Below, piece after piece: positions 40,987 through 46,488 of a stretch of DNA of 64,000 nt. A model generated the notes under the pieces. That model was not told where the DNA came from. It saw only the letters and a list, made by a program, of their open reading frames with translations, and made no database searches. Position 1 is the first letter of the stretch. Every line of letters starts with the position of its first letter. A program made the translations under genes and the position numbers. This stretch comes from Solibacteraceae bacterium. Its GTDB lineage: Bacteria; Acidobacteriota; Terriglobia; Bryobacterales; Bryobacteraceae. The stretch covers positions 124,001-188,000 of the forward strand of contig JALSRK010000015.1 in the NCBI GenBank assembly GCA_026984795.1. Direction: 5' to 3'.

Positions 40987-43900
40987 ATGCACCAGCATCA
41001 CCTGGAGTTCTCGGCTGAGTTGCCCGACGACCGGACCGAGAAGCTGCGCTACTTCGGACTCACCGCCGTCGTCGGCGCGCTCTTGCTGCTGAACCTGCTG
41101 GGCCTGTGGAAGACCGTCTTTGGCGTCGATACCGCCGCCATCCTCGCCGTCATCGCCGGCTACCGGACCTTTTACAACGCCATCGCCGGTCTGCTCGAGC
41201 GCCGCATCACCGCCGACCTTGCCATCGCCGCGGCCGTCGTCGCCGCCCTCGCCGTCGGCCAATACCTGGCCGCTGCCGAAGCCATGTTCATTATGCTCGT
41301 CGGCGAAGGGCTCGAAGGGTACGCAGCCAAACGGACCTCGACCGCCATCACCCGGTTTGTCGAACAGATGCCGCGGAAAGCGCGCCTGCTCCGCGACGGC
41401 GAAGAGGTCGAGGTGGATGCCGCGGCCCTGCTGCCCGGCGACCTGATTCTCGTCCGCGCCGGCGAACGTATCCCCGCCGACGGCGTCATCGACCACGGAA
41501 GCTCGGCCATCGACGAGGCCACGATCACCGGCGAGAGCCTCCCCGCCGACAAGGGCCCGGGCGACGAGGTCTTCTCCGGCACCCTGAACGGCCACGGCCT
41601 GCTCCGGATCCGCGTGACGCGGGCCGGCGAGGAAACAACGCTGGCCCGGGTGATCCGGCTCGTCGAAGAAGCCCGAAAACGCAAGGCGCCCGTGGAGCGT
41701 CTGGCGGACCGGTATGCCCGCTACTTCGTGCCCGCCCTCTTCGCCACCGCCTCGCTCACGTTCTATTTCACCGGCGACTGGATGCGCACCGTGGCCGTGC
41801 TGATCATCGCCTGCCCGTGCGCCTTGATCCTGGCGACCCCTACGGCGATGGTGGCCGCGATCGGCGGGCTGGCCCGGCGGGGCATCCTGGTGCGCGGCGG
41901 CAGCGCTCTGCAACTCGCTTCCCAGGCCGACACCATCGTCTTCGACAAGACCGGCACCGTCACCGAAGGCCGTTTCGAGATCCTCAAGATCCTCGCCCTC
42001 GGCGGCGGTGAAGACGATGTGTTGCGCCTCGCCGCCATCGCCGAGAGCGGTTCGGATCATATGCTCGCCCGGGTGATCGTCGAAGAGGCCCGGCGCCGGG
42101 GACTGGAGCTCCCTCAGCCGGAATCGGCGCACATCGTCCCCGGGCGGGGGGTGGAATGCCGTTTCGAAGGCCGGATGCTCAGGGCGGGCAACACCGCCTT
42201 GCTCGAGCAGAGCGGCGTTCAGCTCAGCGACGCTCTCCTGGCCGAGGCCGATCAGCTCGGCGCCACGCCTGTCCTCGTCGCCGAGGACGGCCGCCTCGCC
42301 GGCGCCATTCTTCTTCGCGACCGGGTCCGCGAGGGCATCAAGGAAGCCGTCCACGGACTCGAACACCTGGACATCACCCACCTCGTCATGCTCACCGGCG
42401 ACCGCCGCCGGGCCGCCGAGGCCATCGCCCGCGAGATCGGCATCCCGAACGTCGAGGCCGAACTGCTGCCCGAAGAAAAGGTCGAAAAACTCCGCCAGTA
42501 CCTCTCCCAGGGCCGTAAGGTCGCTATGGTCGGCGACGGCGTCAACGACGCCCCGGCGCTGGCCACCGCTCACGTCGGCATCGCCGTCTCCGGAGCCAGC
42601 GATATCACTGCCGAAGCGGCCGACGTCGTTTACATGCCGCGGCCGCTGGACCGCTTGCCCAAGCTGTTCGAGGTCGCCCGCAAGGCCGTGTCCACCGCCT
42701 GGCTGAACATCATCCTTTTCGCCGGCGTAGTGAACGTGGTCGCCGTGGGAATCGCCTCGACCGGCATCGTCGGCCCCCTCGGCGCCGCTGTCTTCCACCA
42801 GGTGGCCTCTCTGCTCGTGATCCTCAACTCGCTGCGGTTGCTGCGGGTGGAACCGGCCCGCGGCCGGCATCACGGCGGTTTGCTGCACCGGCTCGGCCAC
42901 CAGATCGAGCACACTCCTGCCGCCGCCGCCTGGCGGAAACTCAAAGCTGCCGCAGCCGCCTTCGATCCGAAAGAGGCCTTCCATTACCTCATCGTCAACC
43001 GCCGCCGCTATGCGAAGCCGGCCCTCGCCGGCGCCGCCGCACTCTACCTGCTCAGCGGTTTCTATGTACTCGGCCCCGACGAGGTGGGTGTGATCGAACG
43101 GTTCGGCCGTAAGATCCTCCCGTACAAACAGCCCGGCCTGCACTTCAAGTGGATGTGGCCTGTGGACCGGCTGACCCGGATCCAGGCGCGGCGGGTGCGG
43201 GTGATTGAAATCGGTTTCCGTAGCGGGAGCGAGCTTCCCGAAACCGAGCCCGCTGCCTATGAGTGGAACGTGCAGCACCGCTCGGGGCGTTTCCAGAAGA
43301 AGCCGGAAGAGTCCCTCATGTTGAGTGGGGACATGAACATGCTCGAAATGAACGCGGTGATCCACTACCGCCTGAACCGCCCCGACGACTACCTCTTCCA
43401 GCTTCTCGACGGCGAAACCACCGTCCGCGTCGCCGCCGAGAGCGTGCTGCGCAGCGCCGTCCGAACCACAGTGCTGGACGGCGTCTTGACGGTGGCCCGC
43501 AACGAGATCGAGCGGCGCACCGCTGAGGAGCTTCAGAGACGCCTCGACAAATACCGTGCCGGAGTTCAAATCCTCCAGGTCCGGCTTCTCGACGTGCATC
43601 CCTCACTCGAGGTGGTGGACGCCTTCCGCGATGTCGCCGGCGCGTTCGAGGAAAAGAACCGCATGATCAACGAAGCCGAAGGCTACCATAACGAACAGGT
43701 GGCCCTGGCCCGGGGCACGGCGGCCGCTGACGTCGTCACCGCCCGGGGATACTCCGTGGACCGTAAGAACCGCGCCGCCGGCGAGGCGTCGCGCTTCATC
43801 GCCTGGGAACAGGCCTTCCGGCGAGCCCCGCAGGTCAACCAGACCAGACTCTACCTGGAAACGATGGAACAGATCCTGGCGGGACGCCGCAAGATGATCG

Positions 43901-44064
43901 TGGACTCCACGCGCGGCCGCCGCCACCTGACACTCGTCGATGACGGCCTGGGATTGTTCCCGGCCGTGCCCGAACAGCCGTACCGGCCGGAGACCGAATA
44001 CCCGCCCCTGGAAGAATCTCCGCCCCCTCCGGTTCCCGGCGCGGCCCCGGCGAAGCAGCCATGA
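40987..44064 (+). CDS. P1B-type metal ATPase fused to an HflK-like SPFH domain
   Basis: A single 1025-codon frame. Residues 1-620 are a heavy-metal P-type ATPase: TGES actuator loop (181-184), CPC in the membrane (276-278), phosphorylation site DKTGT (320-324), GDGVNDAP (516-523) and a last helix FHQVASLLVILNSLRLLR (603-620). No N-terminal CxxC metal-binding domain exists; the protein opens MHQHH. A His-rich linker (about 625-643) follows, then a membrane helix (about 680-697) and a full HflK-like SPFH domain (VGVIERFGRKILPYKQPGLHF to about residue 970) with a Pro-rich tail. Metal identity is uncertain: CPC suggests Cu/Zn/Cd, but the HQVAS motif is not a classic subgroup mark. First of four coupled genes. 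Confidence 0.93.
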   Translation: MHQHHLEFSAELPDDRTEKLRYFGLTAVVGALLLLNLLGLWKTVFGVDTAAILAVIAGYRTFYNAIAGLLERRITADLAIAAAVVAALAVGQYLAAAEAMFIMLVGEGLEGYAAKRTSTAITRFVEQMPRKARLLRDGEEVEVDAAALLPGDLILVRAGERIPADGVIDHGSSAIDEATITGESLPADKGPGDEVFSGTLNGHGLLRIRVTRAGEETTLARVIRLVEEARKRKAPVERLADRYARYFVPALFATASLTFYFTGDWMRTVAVLIIACPCALILATPTAMVAAIGGLARRGILVRGGSALQLASQADTIVFDKTGTVTEGRFEILKILALGGGEDDVLRLAAIAESGSDHMLARVIVEEARRRGLELPQPESAHIVPGRGVECRFEGRMLRAGNTALLEQSGVQLSDALLAEADQLGATPVLVAEDGRLAGAILLRDRVREGIKEAVHGLEHLDITHLVMLTGDRRRAAEAIAREIGIPNVEAELLPEEKVEKLRQYLSQGRKVAMVGDGVNDAPALATAHVGIAVSGASDITAEAADVVYMPRPLDRLPKLFEVARKAVSTAWLNIILFAGVVNVVAVGIASTGIVGPLGAAVFHQVASLLVILNSLRLLRVEPARGRHHGGLLHRLGHQIEHTPAAAAWRKLKAAAAAFDPKEAFHYLIVNRRRYAKPALAGAAALYLLSGFYVLGPDEVGVIERFGRKILPYKQPGLHFKWMWPVDRLTRIQARRVRVIEIGFRSGSELPETEPAAYEWNVQHRSGRFQKKPEESLMLSGDMNMLEMNAVIHYRLNRPDDYLFQLLDGETTVRVAAESVLRSAVRTTVLDGVLTVARNEIERRTAEELQRRLDKYRAGVQILQVRLLDVHPSLEVVDAFRDVAGAFEEKNRMINEAEGYHNEQVALARGTAAADVVTARGYSVDRKNRAAGEASRFIAWEQAFRRAPQVNQTRLYLETMEQILAGRRKMIVDSTRGRRHLTLVDDGLGLFPAVPEQPYRPETEYPPLEESPPPPVPGAAPAKQP

Positions 44065-44092: not shown

Positions 44093-44983
44093 ATGGAGCG
44101 TTATAAGAAATACGTACCGGCCGCCCTCGCGGCCCTCCTGGCGCTGCTGCTGGCGCGCACCTTCTTTTCCGTCCGGGAAACCGAATTCGTCCTCGTCACC
44201 CAGTTCGGCAAGCCCGTCTACACCGTGACCGAGCCGGGCCTCCACGTGAAATGGTTCTTCCGCAGCGCCACCTACTTTGACCGCCGCCTCCGCATCTACA
44301 ACCCGCGTCCGAGCGAGTTTCTGACCCGCGACAAGAAGAACCTCGTCATCGAGTGCTACGTCGCCTGGCAGATCGCCGATCCGAAGACCTTCGTCCAGAC
44401 CGTCGGCGATCCGGTGGCTGCGGAGATGCGCCTGCACGACATCATTTGGTCCTCGCTCGCCGCCGCCGTCGGCACGCACGACATGGACGCGTTGATCGCG
44501 CCGTCGCCCCAGGCCGTGCGCACTCAGGACATGCTCGACGAGGTGACGCAGCTCACCGACGCCCGGGCGCTGGAACGTTACGGCATCCGCGTCGCCGACG
44601 TCCGCATCAAGCGCCTCAACCTGCCCGAGCAGAACAAGCAGAGCGTCTATGCGCGTATGAGAGCCGAACGGGAACGCATCGCCCGCCGGTACCGGGCCGA
44701 GGGCGAGGAGCAGGCCCTCAAGATCCGCGCCGACGCCGACCGTCAGAAGCAGGAGATCCTCTCGGCGGCCTACAAGCAGGCCGAAGAGATCAAAGGCCAG
44801 GGCGACGCCGAGGCGACGCGCATTTACAGCAACGCTTACTCGCGGAACCCGGCTTTCTATAAGCTGTTGCGTACCCTCGAAGCCTACAAGAAGATCTTCG
44901 GCGACGACAAGACCACAGCCATCCTGAGCTCGGACTCCGAGCTGCTGAAAGTCATGATGGAAGGAGAGAGGGCAGCACGGTGA
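44093..44983 (+). CDS. hflC: HflC-like SPFH membrane protein
   Basis: A 296-residue protein: one N-terminal membrane helix (about 9-25), the SPFH/band-7 domain (FVLVTQFGKPVYTVTEPGLH, then KNLVIECYVAWQIADP) and a helical coiled-coil region (RMRAERERIARRYRAEGEEQ). It ends in NPAFYKLLRTLEAYKKIFG, as in HflC. HflC with HflK forms a membrane cage around FtsH in E. coli; here the partners are the ATPase fusion before it and the HflK-like gene after it. GAGAGG precedes the ATG; the stop overlaps the next GTG. No ftsH is in the window. Confidence 0.9.
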   Translation: MERYKKYVPAALAALLALLLARTFFSVRETEFVLVTQFGKPVYTVTEPGLHVKWFFRSATYFDRRLRIYNPRPSEFLTRDKKNLVIECYVAWQIADPKTFVQTVGDPVAAEMRLHDIIWSSLAAAVGTHDMDALIAPSPQAVRTQDMLDEVTQLTDARALERYGIRVADVRIKRLNLPEQNKQSVYARMRAERERIARRYRAEGEEQALKIRADADRQKQEILSAAYKQAEEIKGQGDAEATRIYSNAYSRNPAFYKLLRTLEAYKKIFGDDKTTAILSSDSELLKVMMEGERAAR

Positions 44984-46005
44984 GCCTGACCGGCGTCGCC
45001 AAACCGGGAACCCATCCGGAGCATGAGCACCCTCATGCCCATGAGCATCCCCACCCTCACGAGCGCCGTCCTCCCATTTGGCGGCGCCACCCGAGGCGAA
45101 TTGCCGGAGCTCTGCTTCTGTTGTGGCTGCTGAGCGGCGTCTACATCGTCCCCGCTGACCAGCAAGCGGTGGTCACCCGGTTCGGCAAGGTGGTGGAGCC
45201 GCGGGTGATGCCCGGCATCCACATCGCCTGGCCGTGGCCCCTTGAGCGGGTGACGAAGCTCAAGGTTCAGCAGTTGCAGCGCCTCATCATCGGCGGCGAT
45301 ATCTCCGACGGCATCCTGGGCCGCACCGATCCCCGCATCTCCCAATTCTTGACCGGCGATCAGAACCTGATCCACATGCGGGTCGTCGTCCAGTACTCGG
45401 TGGGCGAGCCGGCCCAGTATCTGTTCCGCGCGGAAAACGTATCGAAGGCCGTCGGGGCCGCGGTGGAAGCCGAGCTGGCCCACCGGGTGGCGAACCGTGG
45501 CGTCGACGCCGTCCTGACCACCGAGAAAGCGGCCATCCAGGAAGAGGTCCGCGCCGCGGCGCAGAAGATCATCGACGCTTACGGCATCGGGGTGCTGCTG
45601 GCCAGCGTCAACATCGAGAGTGCCCAACCGCCGCCGGAGGCGGCCGACGCCTTCCGCGATGTCGCCGGGGCCCGGGCCGACGCCGCCCGCATCGTCAATG
45701 AGGCTCACGGTTACGCCAACGACGTCATTCCCCGGGCCCGGGGCGAGGCTCAGCGGCTGCTCGCCGAGGCCGAAGCCTACCGCCGCCGCAAGATCAATGA
45801 GGCCCTCGGCGACGCCTCCCGCTTCTCCCAGGTCGCCCGGGAATACCAGCGCGCCCGGCAGATCACCGGCCGCCGGCTGTACCTCGAGACGATGGAGAAG
45901 ATCCTGCCCCGTATCCGCAAGCTGGTTGTCGACAAGAGCGGCAACCTCGACCTGACGATCATTCGGAAAGGGGCCCCGCCCGCCAAACCTCCCCCGAAGC
46001 AGTGA
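44980..46005 (+). CDS. hflK: HflK-like SPFH protein with His-rich N-terminus
   Basis: A 341-residue protein starting at GTG 44980, overlapping the hflC-like stop by four bases, with AAGGAG upstream. Residues 11-28 are a His/Glu/Pro repeat (HPEHEHPHAHEHPHPHE), a likely metal-binding tail on the cytoplasmic side. One membrane helix (about 40-55) follows, then an SPFH domain (AVVTRFGKVVEPRVMPGIHIA) and the helical region (AFRDVAGARADAARIVNEAHGY; long run, about 225-246) resembling the end of the ATPase-fused SPFH domain. Ordinary HflK N-termini are Gly/Asn-rich, not His-rich. Confidence 0.88.
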   Translation: MSLTGVAKPGTHPEHEHPHAHEHPHPHERRPPIWRRHPRRIAGALLLLWLLSGVYIVPADQQAVVTRFGKVVEPRVMPGIHIAWPWPLERVTKLKVQQLQRLIIGGDISDGILGRTDPRISQFLTGDQNLIHMRVVVQYSVGEPAQYLFRAENVSKAVGAAVEAELAHRVANRGVDAVLTTEKAAIQEEVRAAAQKIIDAYGIGVLLASVNIESAQPPPEAADAFRDVAGARADAARIVNEAHGYANDVIPRARGEAQRLLAEAEAYRRRKINEALGDASRFSQVAREYQRARQITGRRLYLETMEKILPRIRKLVVDKSGNLDLTIIRKGAPPAKPPPKQ

Positions 46006-46008
46006 GAC

Positions 46009-46488
46009 ATGGCTGAGCAACGAACCGCCCAGGCAGTGACCATCGCGGTGATCGCCCTGATCGTGGCGATCATCGCCATCCGCCAGTCCGGCTGGAAGCC
46101 CTCACCGCGCACCAACCGCGACCAGACGCCCCAGGACGCCATCTATGCGATGTTGGACGCCGCTCGGGAAGGCGACGTCCAGGCTTACCTCAGGCACTAC
46201 GCCGGCCAGATCCGCGCCACTTTGGAGCAGGCCGTCAAGGAGCAGGGCGAGGACGGCTTCGCCCGCTACTTGCGGGAGAGTAACGCGCCGGTCAAAGGCA
46301 TCGCCATCACCGAGCCGGAGAAGATCGCGCCCAACGAAGTGAAAGCCCGCGTCGAGTACGTCTACCAGGACCGCAACGAGGTTCAGTACATGTACCTGAC
46401 TCGAACCGGCGGCAAGTGGGTGATCACCCGCGTGGACGCGGTCCAGCGCATCAAGACAGTGATCCCCTACGGGACTCCGGTGGAGTGA
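46009..46488 (+). CDS. Membrane-anchored small protein, DUF4878/NTF2-like
   Basis: A 159-residue protein: an N-terminal membrane helix (about 8-24) and a domain with AIYAMLDAAREGDVQAYLRHY and KARVEYVYQDRNEVQYMYL, then GGKWVITRVD. This is the pattern of DUF4878/lumazine-binding-like NTF2 folds, often lipid- or membrane-linked. ATG 46009 is three bases after the hflK-like stop, so it belongs to the ATPase-SPFH operon as a fourth component. Function unknown. Confidence 0.78.
   Translation: MAEQRTAQAVTIAVIALIVAIIAIRQSGWKPSPRTNRDQTPQDAIYAMLDAAREGDVQAYLRHYAGQIRATLEQAVKEQGEDGFARYLRESNAPVKGIAITEPEKIAPNEVKARVEYVYQDRNEVQYMYLTRTGGKWVITRVDAVQRIKTVIPYGTPVE

Follow-up and report, generated by a model that had tools for sequence, protein, structure and literature searches.

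Assemblies of SPFH-domain proteins are known mainly as domes that fence in proteases or lipid domains, and in the HflK/HflC family the SPFH domains are periplasmic and the N-termini cytosolic. Among metal exporters, P1B-4 ATPases are not known to have an HMA domain and carry SPC in TM6 and HEG in TM8, the TM6 motif of CopB is CPH, and the known members of the SO_0444 permease family are stand-alone proteins. For E. coli, one report describes HflK and HflC as alternating in a ring and presents structures of both native and over-produced HflK/HflC (PMC12048511). PMC4932525 assigns YN in TM7 and MxxSS in TM8 to P1B-1 (Cu+) pumps, and a Lys in TM7 and DxG in TM8 to P1B-2 (Zn/Cd/Pb) pumps, and PMC10233261 describes S. 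aureus CopB/CopX (P1B-3) as 8-TM pumps on which a His-rich N-terminus replaces the CxxC domains.

The operon considered here comprises four genes on the + strand of the window, the 64,000-nucleotide stretch of DNA that was analyzed. The first (40987..44064) encodes a 1025-residue protein in which a P1B-type ATPase is joined through a linker and one TM helix to an HflK SPFH domain (TIGR01933 match, residues 692-983, 43060..43935). Its Pfam matches are E1-E2_ATPase, Hydrolase and Band_7, and it scores 564.4 bits against TIGR01525 (cut-off 346.25) and 196.2 bits against TIGR01933 (hflK), above the curated cut-off of 159.4. It is followed by an HflC-like protein of 296 residues (44093..44983; TIGR01932, 217.6 bits, curated cut-off 134.4), which bears no His tail in the window, and by a second HflK, HflK2 (44980..46005, 341 residues, GTG start), which exceeds the same TIGR01933 cut-off with 228.8 bits and matches E. 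coli HflK (7vhp) at 160.3 bits. The fourth gene (46009..46488) encodes 159 residues with an N-terminal TM and an NTF2-like domain, as judged from an AF2 model (pLDDT 92.2) and a Foldseek search whose matches were NTF2-like and DUF4783 proteins (best E 2e-4; TM-scores by query 0.28-0.47 over the first 14 matches). Its start lies 3 bases 3' of the HflK2 stop in the window and overlaps that stop by 4 bases in 91 of 111 loci. In the genome of the window (a 97% complete assembly), TIGR01933 was passed solely by the two HflK proteins of the operon, and the operon HflC is the sole TIGR01932 match at E 1e-30. The usual modulators of FtsH may be missing from this genome, or the HflK/HflC proteins of the operon may be shared.

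Residues 11-28 of HflK2 (45010..45063) read T-H-P-E-H-E-H-P-H-A-H-E-H-P-H-P-H-E, with His at positions 12, 15, 17, 19, 21, 23, 25 and 27, ahead of the single TM (approximately residues 41-57, estimated by eye). This agrees letter for letter with the original prediction, which had described an eight-His run at these residues. The GTG start is well supported, since its 4-base overlap with the HflC stop is the commonest spacing (82 of the 124 loci of this operon with a measured gap) and the next in-frame start codon lies 141 bases downstream. Against a background of 0.97% His in the HflC and HflK2 cores, the chance of at least 8 His in one single 20-mer is about 9e-12, before any correction for the number of places, and HflK2 alone among 200 mechanically called window ORFs of at least 100 aa has more than 5 His per 20 residues within its first 45. 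At the DNA level, the pattern of five alternating His codons is not rare, with 9 matches spread over 7 genomic places, because the reversed pattern gives 5 matches; judged from their translations, only the HflK2 tail among the 7 places falls in a real reading frame. The His codons of this tail are mixed (5 CAT and 3 CAC).

The pump belongs to the P1B heavy-metal ATPases, with CPx in TM6, DKTG, TGE and the match to TIGR01525. CPC in TM6 is present in 37/37 aligned ATPase rows, TM7 is nearly invariant across the 37 rows as WQNII..VN and TM8 as HQxxS..VMxNSxRLL, and DKTG and TGE are invariant in ATPase alignment A3; L059, whose fusion is intact, stands outside the ATPase alignment. P1B-4 was rejected as a class for the pump, with CPC and HQ found instead of its motifs and the TM8 His alone in common in the alignment to 7qbz. 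Relative to the motifs given in PMC4932525, P1B-1 was likewise rejected, WQNII..VN and HQxxS being found instead of YN and MxxSS, as was P1B-2, TM7 being without Lys and TM8 having HQ. Assignment of a substrate metal from the TM motifs therefore failed, as they fit none of P1B-1, P1B-2 and P1B-4, the classes that the comparison covered. The same genome has two further P1B pumps (L284 and L285), which by reading of motifs are CopA-like, with P1B-1 motifs, and ZntA-like, with P1B-2 motifs; the motifs of both differ from those of the fusion.

An HMA domain was found in none of the 37 aligned fusions, the N-termini of whose rows were trimmed, and in none of 8 fusions read from stop to stop. The original prediction had also described a pump that begins MHQHH (40987..41001), lacks a CxxC metal-binding domain and holds five His in its linker (residues 625-643, 42859..42915), all of which was borne out, with no HMA domain by Pfam and the linker His at 628, 629, 634, 638 and 642. 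MHQH starts are present in 8 of the 36 aligned ATPase rows that have an N-terminus, and ATPase N-termini of family f60 are also His-rich, e.g., MGAHFHDDGHGHSHSHG; conservation of the linker histidines was ruled out by the ATPase alignment. Of 70 N-termini read from stop to stop, 11 showed an in-frame CxxC (CYLC/CYVC in f3, CSRC/CLRC in f60), situated 5' of the probable start codon, and L060 was likewise flagged for an in-frame CxxC, without printed context. In most f3 loci, CYLC or a similar motif lies in frame just 5' of the first ATPase start codon, and CYLC or CYVC directly precedes that start in L062, L064, L065, L068, L069, L073 and L074. This stretch is probably untranslated; if the start were non-standard, it would give the f3 pump a CxxC. 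The AF2 model of the fusion (pLDDT 75, pTM 0.54) has a P1B fold, a helical linker, a further TM helix, the SPFH domain and a long helix. Because eight TM helices of the pump can be counted on this model, known topology predicts a cytosolic linker and a periplasmic SPFH domain.

A search with HflK2 gave matches in 52 of 101 genomes (that of the window and relatives). Thirty-eight other genomes with strong matches were taken on, along with G090, which had a weaker one; tblastn detected the fusion, HflC and HflK2 together in 38/38 and the small fourth protein in 33/38, and ruled out G090 as the same operon type. The ATPases of L047 and L061 are interrupted by a contig end or gap. When a fusion-specific stretch was searched against genome contigs, 80 loci of 87 relatives were kept, 78 mostly labelled Acidobacteriota or Bryobacterales and 2 Planctomycetota (L155, Brocadiia; L156, Thermogutta), in both of which HflC, HflK2 and the small protein follow the fusion. 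Among 297 Acidobacteriota genomes drawn, 15 had the fusion (that of the window, f33 (2), f41 (1) and f60 (11)), with the same four genes in the same order in all 14 others, and the Thermogutta fusion as query gave matches in 2 of 246 Planctomycetota genomes, both known already. The four-gene unit of fusion, HflC, HflK2 and NTF2-like protein is found in the same order in two phyla and several Acidobacteriota families. Ten flanking proteins scanned at six loci were mutually unrelated and included no shared regulator, and no plasmid match of the P1B fusion covered 80% of the part searched.

The 133 loci with an ATPase match were reduced to 123 by leaving out 9 without a usable HflC or HflK2 (among them L113, which bears a His tail on HflC) and L119, which was too short; these 123 comprise 85 distinct sequences. 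A tail was defined as at least 5 His per 20 residues, a threshold chosen after the counts were seen to be two-peaked, with either 0-2 (52 operons) or 5-13 His (33) in HflC and either 0-3 (80) or 6-11 (5) in HflK2. Tails were present on HflC in 33 of the 85 operons, on HflK2 in 5, on both in none and on neither in 47; because of these 47, a His tail on HflC or HflK2 is not essential. Mutual exclusion between the two proteins is a mere observation, since the Fisher test was not significant (p 0.15, with operons that are not independent). The HflK2-tailed operons are those of the window, L101 (MSTIPLVEHHHHNGYGHPHEHHRHDHPHEH), L128, L148 and L135; the HflK2 of L136 is identical to that of L135. 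HflC tails are stronger than the HflK2 tail of the window, beginning, for example, MHDHSHTHHHH, with further examples in L073 (MHDHSHTHHHHGHADHHHDHDHDHGHSHSHGHRH) and L208 (MTDHDHHQHHDHHGHHHDDVHRHDGGDGHEH). The median N-terminal extension of HflC is 40 aa with a tail and 7 without, and in tail-bearing extensions His makes up 36% of the residues and Asp 14%, while Cys is absent. The operons of L082 (labelled Acidimicrobiia), L094 (Nevskia soli) and L136 (Cytophagales) group with those of Acidobacteriota, and the three records are probably mislabelled or mixed MAGs.

As controls, up to 60 in-frame residues preceding the first TM were inspected in HflC proteins outside the P1B operon. One set combined 25 loci from one survey with the best-scoring 30 of a second, covering 59 Planctomycetota and 149 Acidobacteriota genomes; a few of these 55 come from transporter operons (L229, L230, L234-L237), and 54 were assessable, L224 ending at a contig end. 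At least 4 His per 20 residues were found in 0/54 of these survey HflC proteins (best-scoring loci in the second survey; maximum 3), in 0/7 canonical HflC from genomes that also own the operon (5 of 11 f60 and 2 of 2 f33; maximum 2) and in 0/13 HflC of the permease and CDF sister operons described below (maximum 1). Given control maxima of 3, 2 and 1, the tail goes, within this sample, with the P1B operon and not with HflC generally. The seven f60/f33 genomes keep a separate canonical HflK/HflC pair besides the operon.

Changes in tail state were counted on a tree of the HflC and HflK2 cores, tails excluded; since this was a quick LG+G4 tree with no bootstrap, on which the long Planctomycetota and f33 branches meet, the counts are approximate. 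HflC tails required 4 changes (at least 4 by starred branches; shuffled mean 26.4), HflK2 tails 3 (at least 2 by starred branches; shuffled mean 4.9), and the three tail states jointly 7 (shuffled mean 30.5), with an HflC tail in all 15 f3 and all 11 f60 operons of the tree. Among six close f3 tails, His codons showed CAT/CAC exchange in 19 pairwise cells and replacement in 20, and other codons 14 and 43; among ten f60 tails, the corresponding synonymous and replacement cells were 43 and 150 for His codons and 116 and 203 for other codons, the cells being non-independent in both comparisons. The f60 counts speak for a labile tail, and f60 tails also vary in length and in the positions of their His.

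At the level of sequence, then, the SPFH proteins that accompany an HMA-less P1B-ATPase repeatedly bear His tails. The narrower expectation, that a tail on HflK2 is kept in close orthologues, fails: the three operons nearest to the window on the tree (L037, L041 and L044) have no HflK2 tail, nor do 80 of the 85 distinct operons. Conservation of the HflK2 tail as such is ruled out (5/85), and the tail of the window looks lineage-specific. The original prediction had also proposed that the SPFH partners may have taken over metal handling from the ATPase N-terminus. A putative role of these partners in metal handling gains much support from the HMA-less pumps, from His extensions on an SPFH partner in 38 of 85 operons and from their absence in HflC sampled outside this operon type, but an actual transfer stays conjectural, given the 47 operons without a tail and the ATPases with His-rich N-termini.

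HflK-like SPFH domains were also found fused to two other kinds of exporter. In one, a Cu/Zn efflux permease of the SO_0444 family runs on into an HflK-like SPFH domain, with HflC and then a second HflK-like gene behind it. Such trios occur as a second trio in some f3 genomes (L157:4687-9295, L158, L159), in L211 and, found through the HflC surveys, in Planctomycetota (L268, L269, L270, L272) and Acidobacteriota (L274, L276); all 8 permease fusions scanned passed NF033936 (316.3-390.9 bits, cut-off 300), L158 and L159 being outside that scan. In the other, a CDF-HflK fusion precedes HflC and HflK in one Planctomycetota locus (L271:3971-5731) and two Acidobacteriota loci (L273:2357-4120 and L275:2529-4301), and the 3 fusions scanned passed TIGR01297 (120.3, 85.0 and 89.4, cut-off 82.35). 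The CDF-HflK, HflC, HflK arrangement is also present on the conjugative plasmid unnamed1 of Aquibium oceanicum B7 (NZ_CP018172.1; L287:6001-9646), where the fusion scores 89.0 against Pfam Cation_efflux (cut-off 26.6) and is annotated only as hflK, and where the neighbours are an Nramp gene, a two-component system and a heavy-metal P-type ATPase. Neither HflC nor HflK of the Aquibium operon has a His tail. Whole-length matches in the plasmid search numbered one for the CDF form and none for the permease form.

The SPFH part of these sister fusions is above the Pfam Band_7 cut-off in 11/11 scanned. Against TIGR01933 (159.4), L269, L271 and L274 are above the cut-off, L268 is at exactly 159.4, and L157, L211, L270, L272, L273, L275 and L276 are below it at 113-156; with the cut-off exceeded in 3 of 11 and equalled in one, "HflK-like" is the safe name. 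Transporter-HflK-HflC units were present in at least 6 of 59 Planctomycetota and at least 12 of 149 Acidobacteriota genomes in the two HflC surveys, lower bounds because just the unusual-looking loci were opened. A His stretch of their own (at least 5 per 20 residues) was found in 6 of 10 permease fusions and in 0/3 CDF fusions scanned; since the latter have none, and neither do HflC and HflK of Aquibium, the SPFH trio works without a His stretch. No match to the NTF2-like fourth gene was found in the 13 permease and CDF operons. The literature searched, mostly without subscription papers, yielded no earlier report of such fusions; by term search, ATPase, permease and cation are absent from PMC2636767, PMC13086221 has no mention of such fusions, and SPFH and HflK are absent from the main text of PMC10092412.

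On balance, we lean toward the reading that a metal exporter has been integrated into an HflK/HflC-type assembly and that the tail extends an SPFH subunit of this assembly on the cytosolic side, where it binds metal. With SPFH domains periplasmic and N-termini cytosolic, the SPFH partners would form an HflK/C-like dome that holds or fences the exporter, the fusion setting the pump within this dome or at its rim. The His tails, one for each HflC or HflK2 subunit, would then surround the cytosolic entrance of the pump like a brush. They may bind a divalent metal (Zn, Ni, Co, Cd or Cu) with moderate affinity, concentrate it locally and/or activate the pump, and could in this way replace the function of the missing N-terminal domain, with the metal exiting beneath the dome. 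Alternatively, the tails might be low-complexity expansions of a tolerant disordered N-terminus, gained and lost by slippage and doing little. Their patchiness (47 of 85 operons without one), their absence from the nearest relatives of the window and the variable lengths and His positions in f60 are consistent with such an origin. However, tails are missing from HflC sampled elsewhere (0/54, 0/7 and 0/13), His is chosen every time, the f3 clade shows a relatively high frequency of CAT/CAC exchange, and HflC tails persist through 15 f3 and 11 f60 operons, so that we regard slippage as a rather unlikely explanation.

It also seems quite improbable that HflC and HflK2 are ordinary FtsH modulators, with the fusion tying the ATPase to the FtsH complex and metal sensed by the tail controlling whether the pump or other membrane proteins are proteolytically degraded. 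PMC12048511 describes HflK/C as enclosing FtsH in E. coli, and the genome of the window is without other HflK/HflC above the cut-offs. Yet the seven f60/f33 genomes retain a canonical pair beside the operon, and in those genomes the operon trio is therefore not just an FtsH modulator; moreover, HflK-like fusions to three unrelated exporters would be left unexplained. Finally, the tails could be assembly or targeting elements that link subunits in a metal- or pH-dependent manner and thereby determine how many pumps enter the SPFH ring, rather than delivering metal. The position of the strong tail, where present, on a ring subunit (HflC or HflK2) suits this idea, and nothing specific speaks against it, but the MHQH starts, the His-rich f60 ATPase N-termini and the His loops in 6 of 10 permease fusions suggest a role related to transport, and we consider it very doubtful.

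If the tail is indeed a metal-binding extension of the exporter assembly, the metal-binding domain missing from the pump may sit on its scaffold. More tentatively, it is possible that SPFH-caged metal exporters are an unrecognized class, in which a P1B-ATPase, an SO_0444 permease or a CDF protein, each extended by an HflK-like domain and encoded alongside HflC and another HflK, would pump into a closed or half-closed periplasmic dome, the P1B form being fed by cytosolic His brushes. That exporters of three kinds carry fused HflK-like domains ties an SPFH assembly to transport and offers a testable reason for SPFH domes, which could confine a dangerous ion or regulate access to the pump. Aquibium provides a cultured, plasmid-borne example of the system, and its plasmid illustrates that automatic annotation can hide transporter fusions under the name HflK.

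Compared with the E. coli HflK-HflC cage around FtsH, the proteins described here belong to the same TIGR01933 and TIGR01932 families and have the same order of one TM followed by an SPFH domain. In contrast with that cage, each operon encodes one HflC and two HflK, one of the two HflK being joined to a metal pump, and a His-rich extension and an extra NTF2-like protein are added. With the CopB-type P1B-3 Cu-ATPases, as described in PMC10233261, the operon shares a cytosolic His-rich stretch in place of CxxC domains. The window pump differs from CopB in having CPC in TM6, and a strong His stretch, in operons that have one, is mostly found on a separate SPFH protein. In TM8, the His of the pump aligns with the His of HEGST in the P1B-4 ATPase sCoaT (7qbz), from which the pump differs by CPC instead of SPC in TM6 and HQ instead of HE in TM8. 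The SO_0444 permeases, in turn, have their counterpart in the sister version of the operon, where HflC and HflK2 are encoded next to a permease joined to an HflK-like domain.
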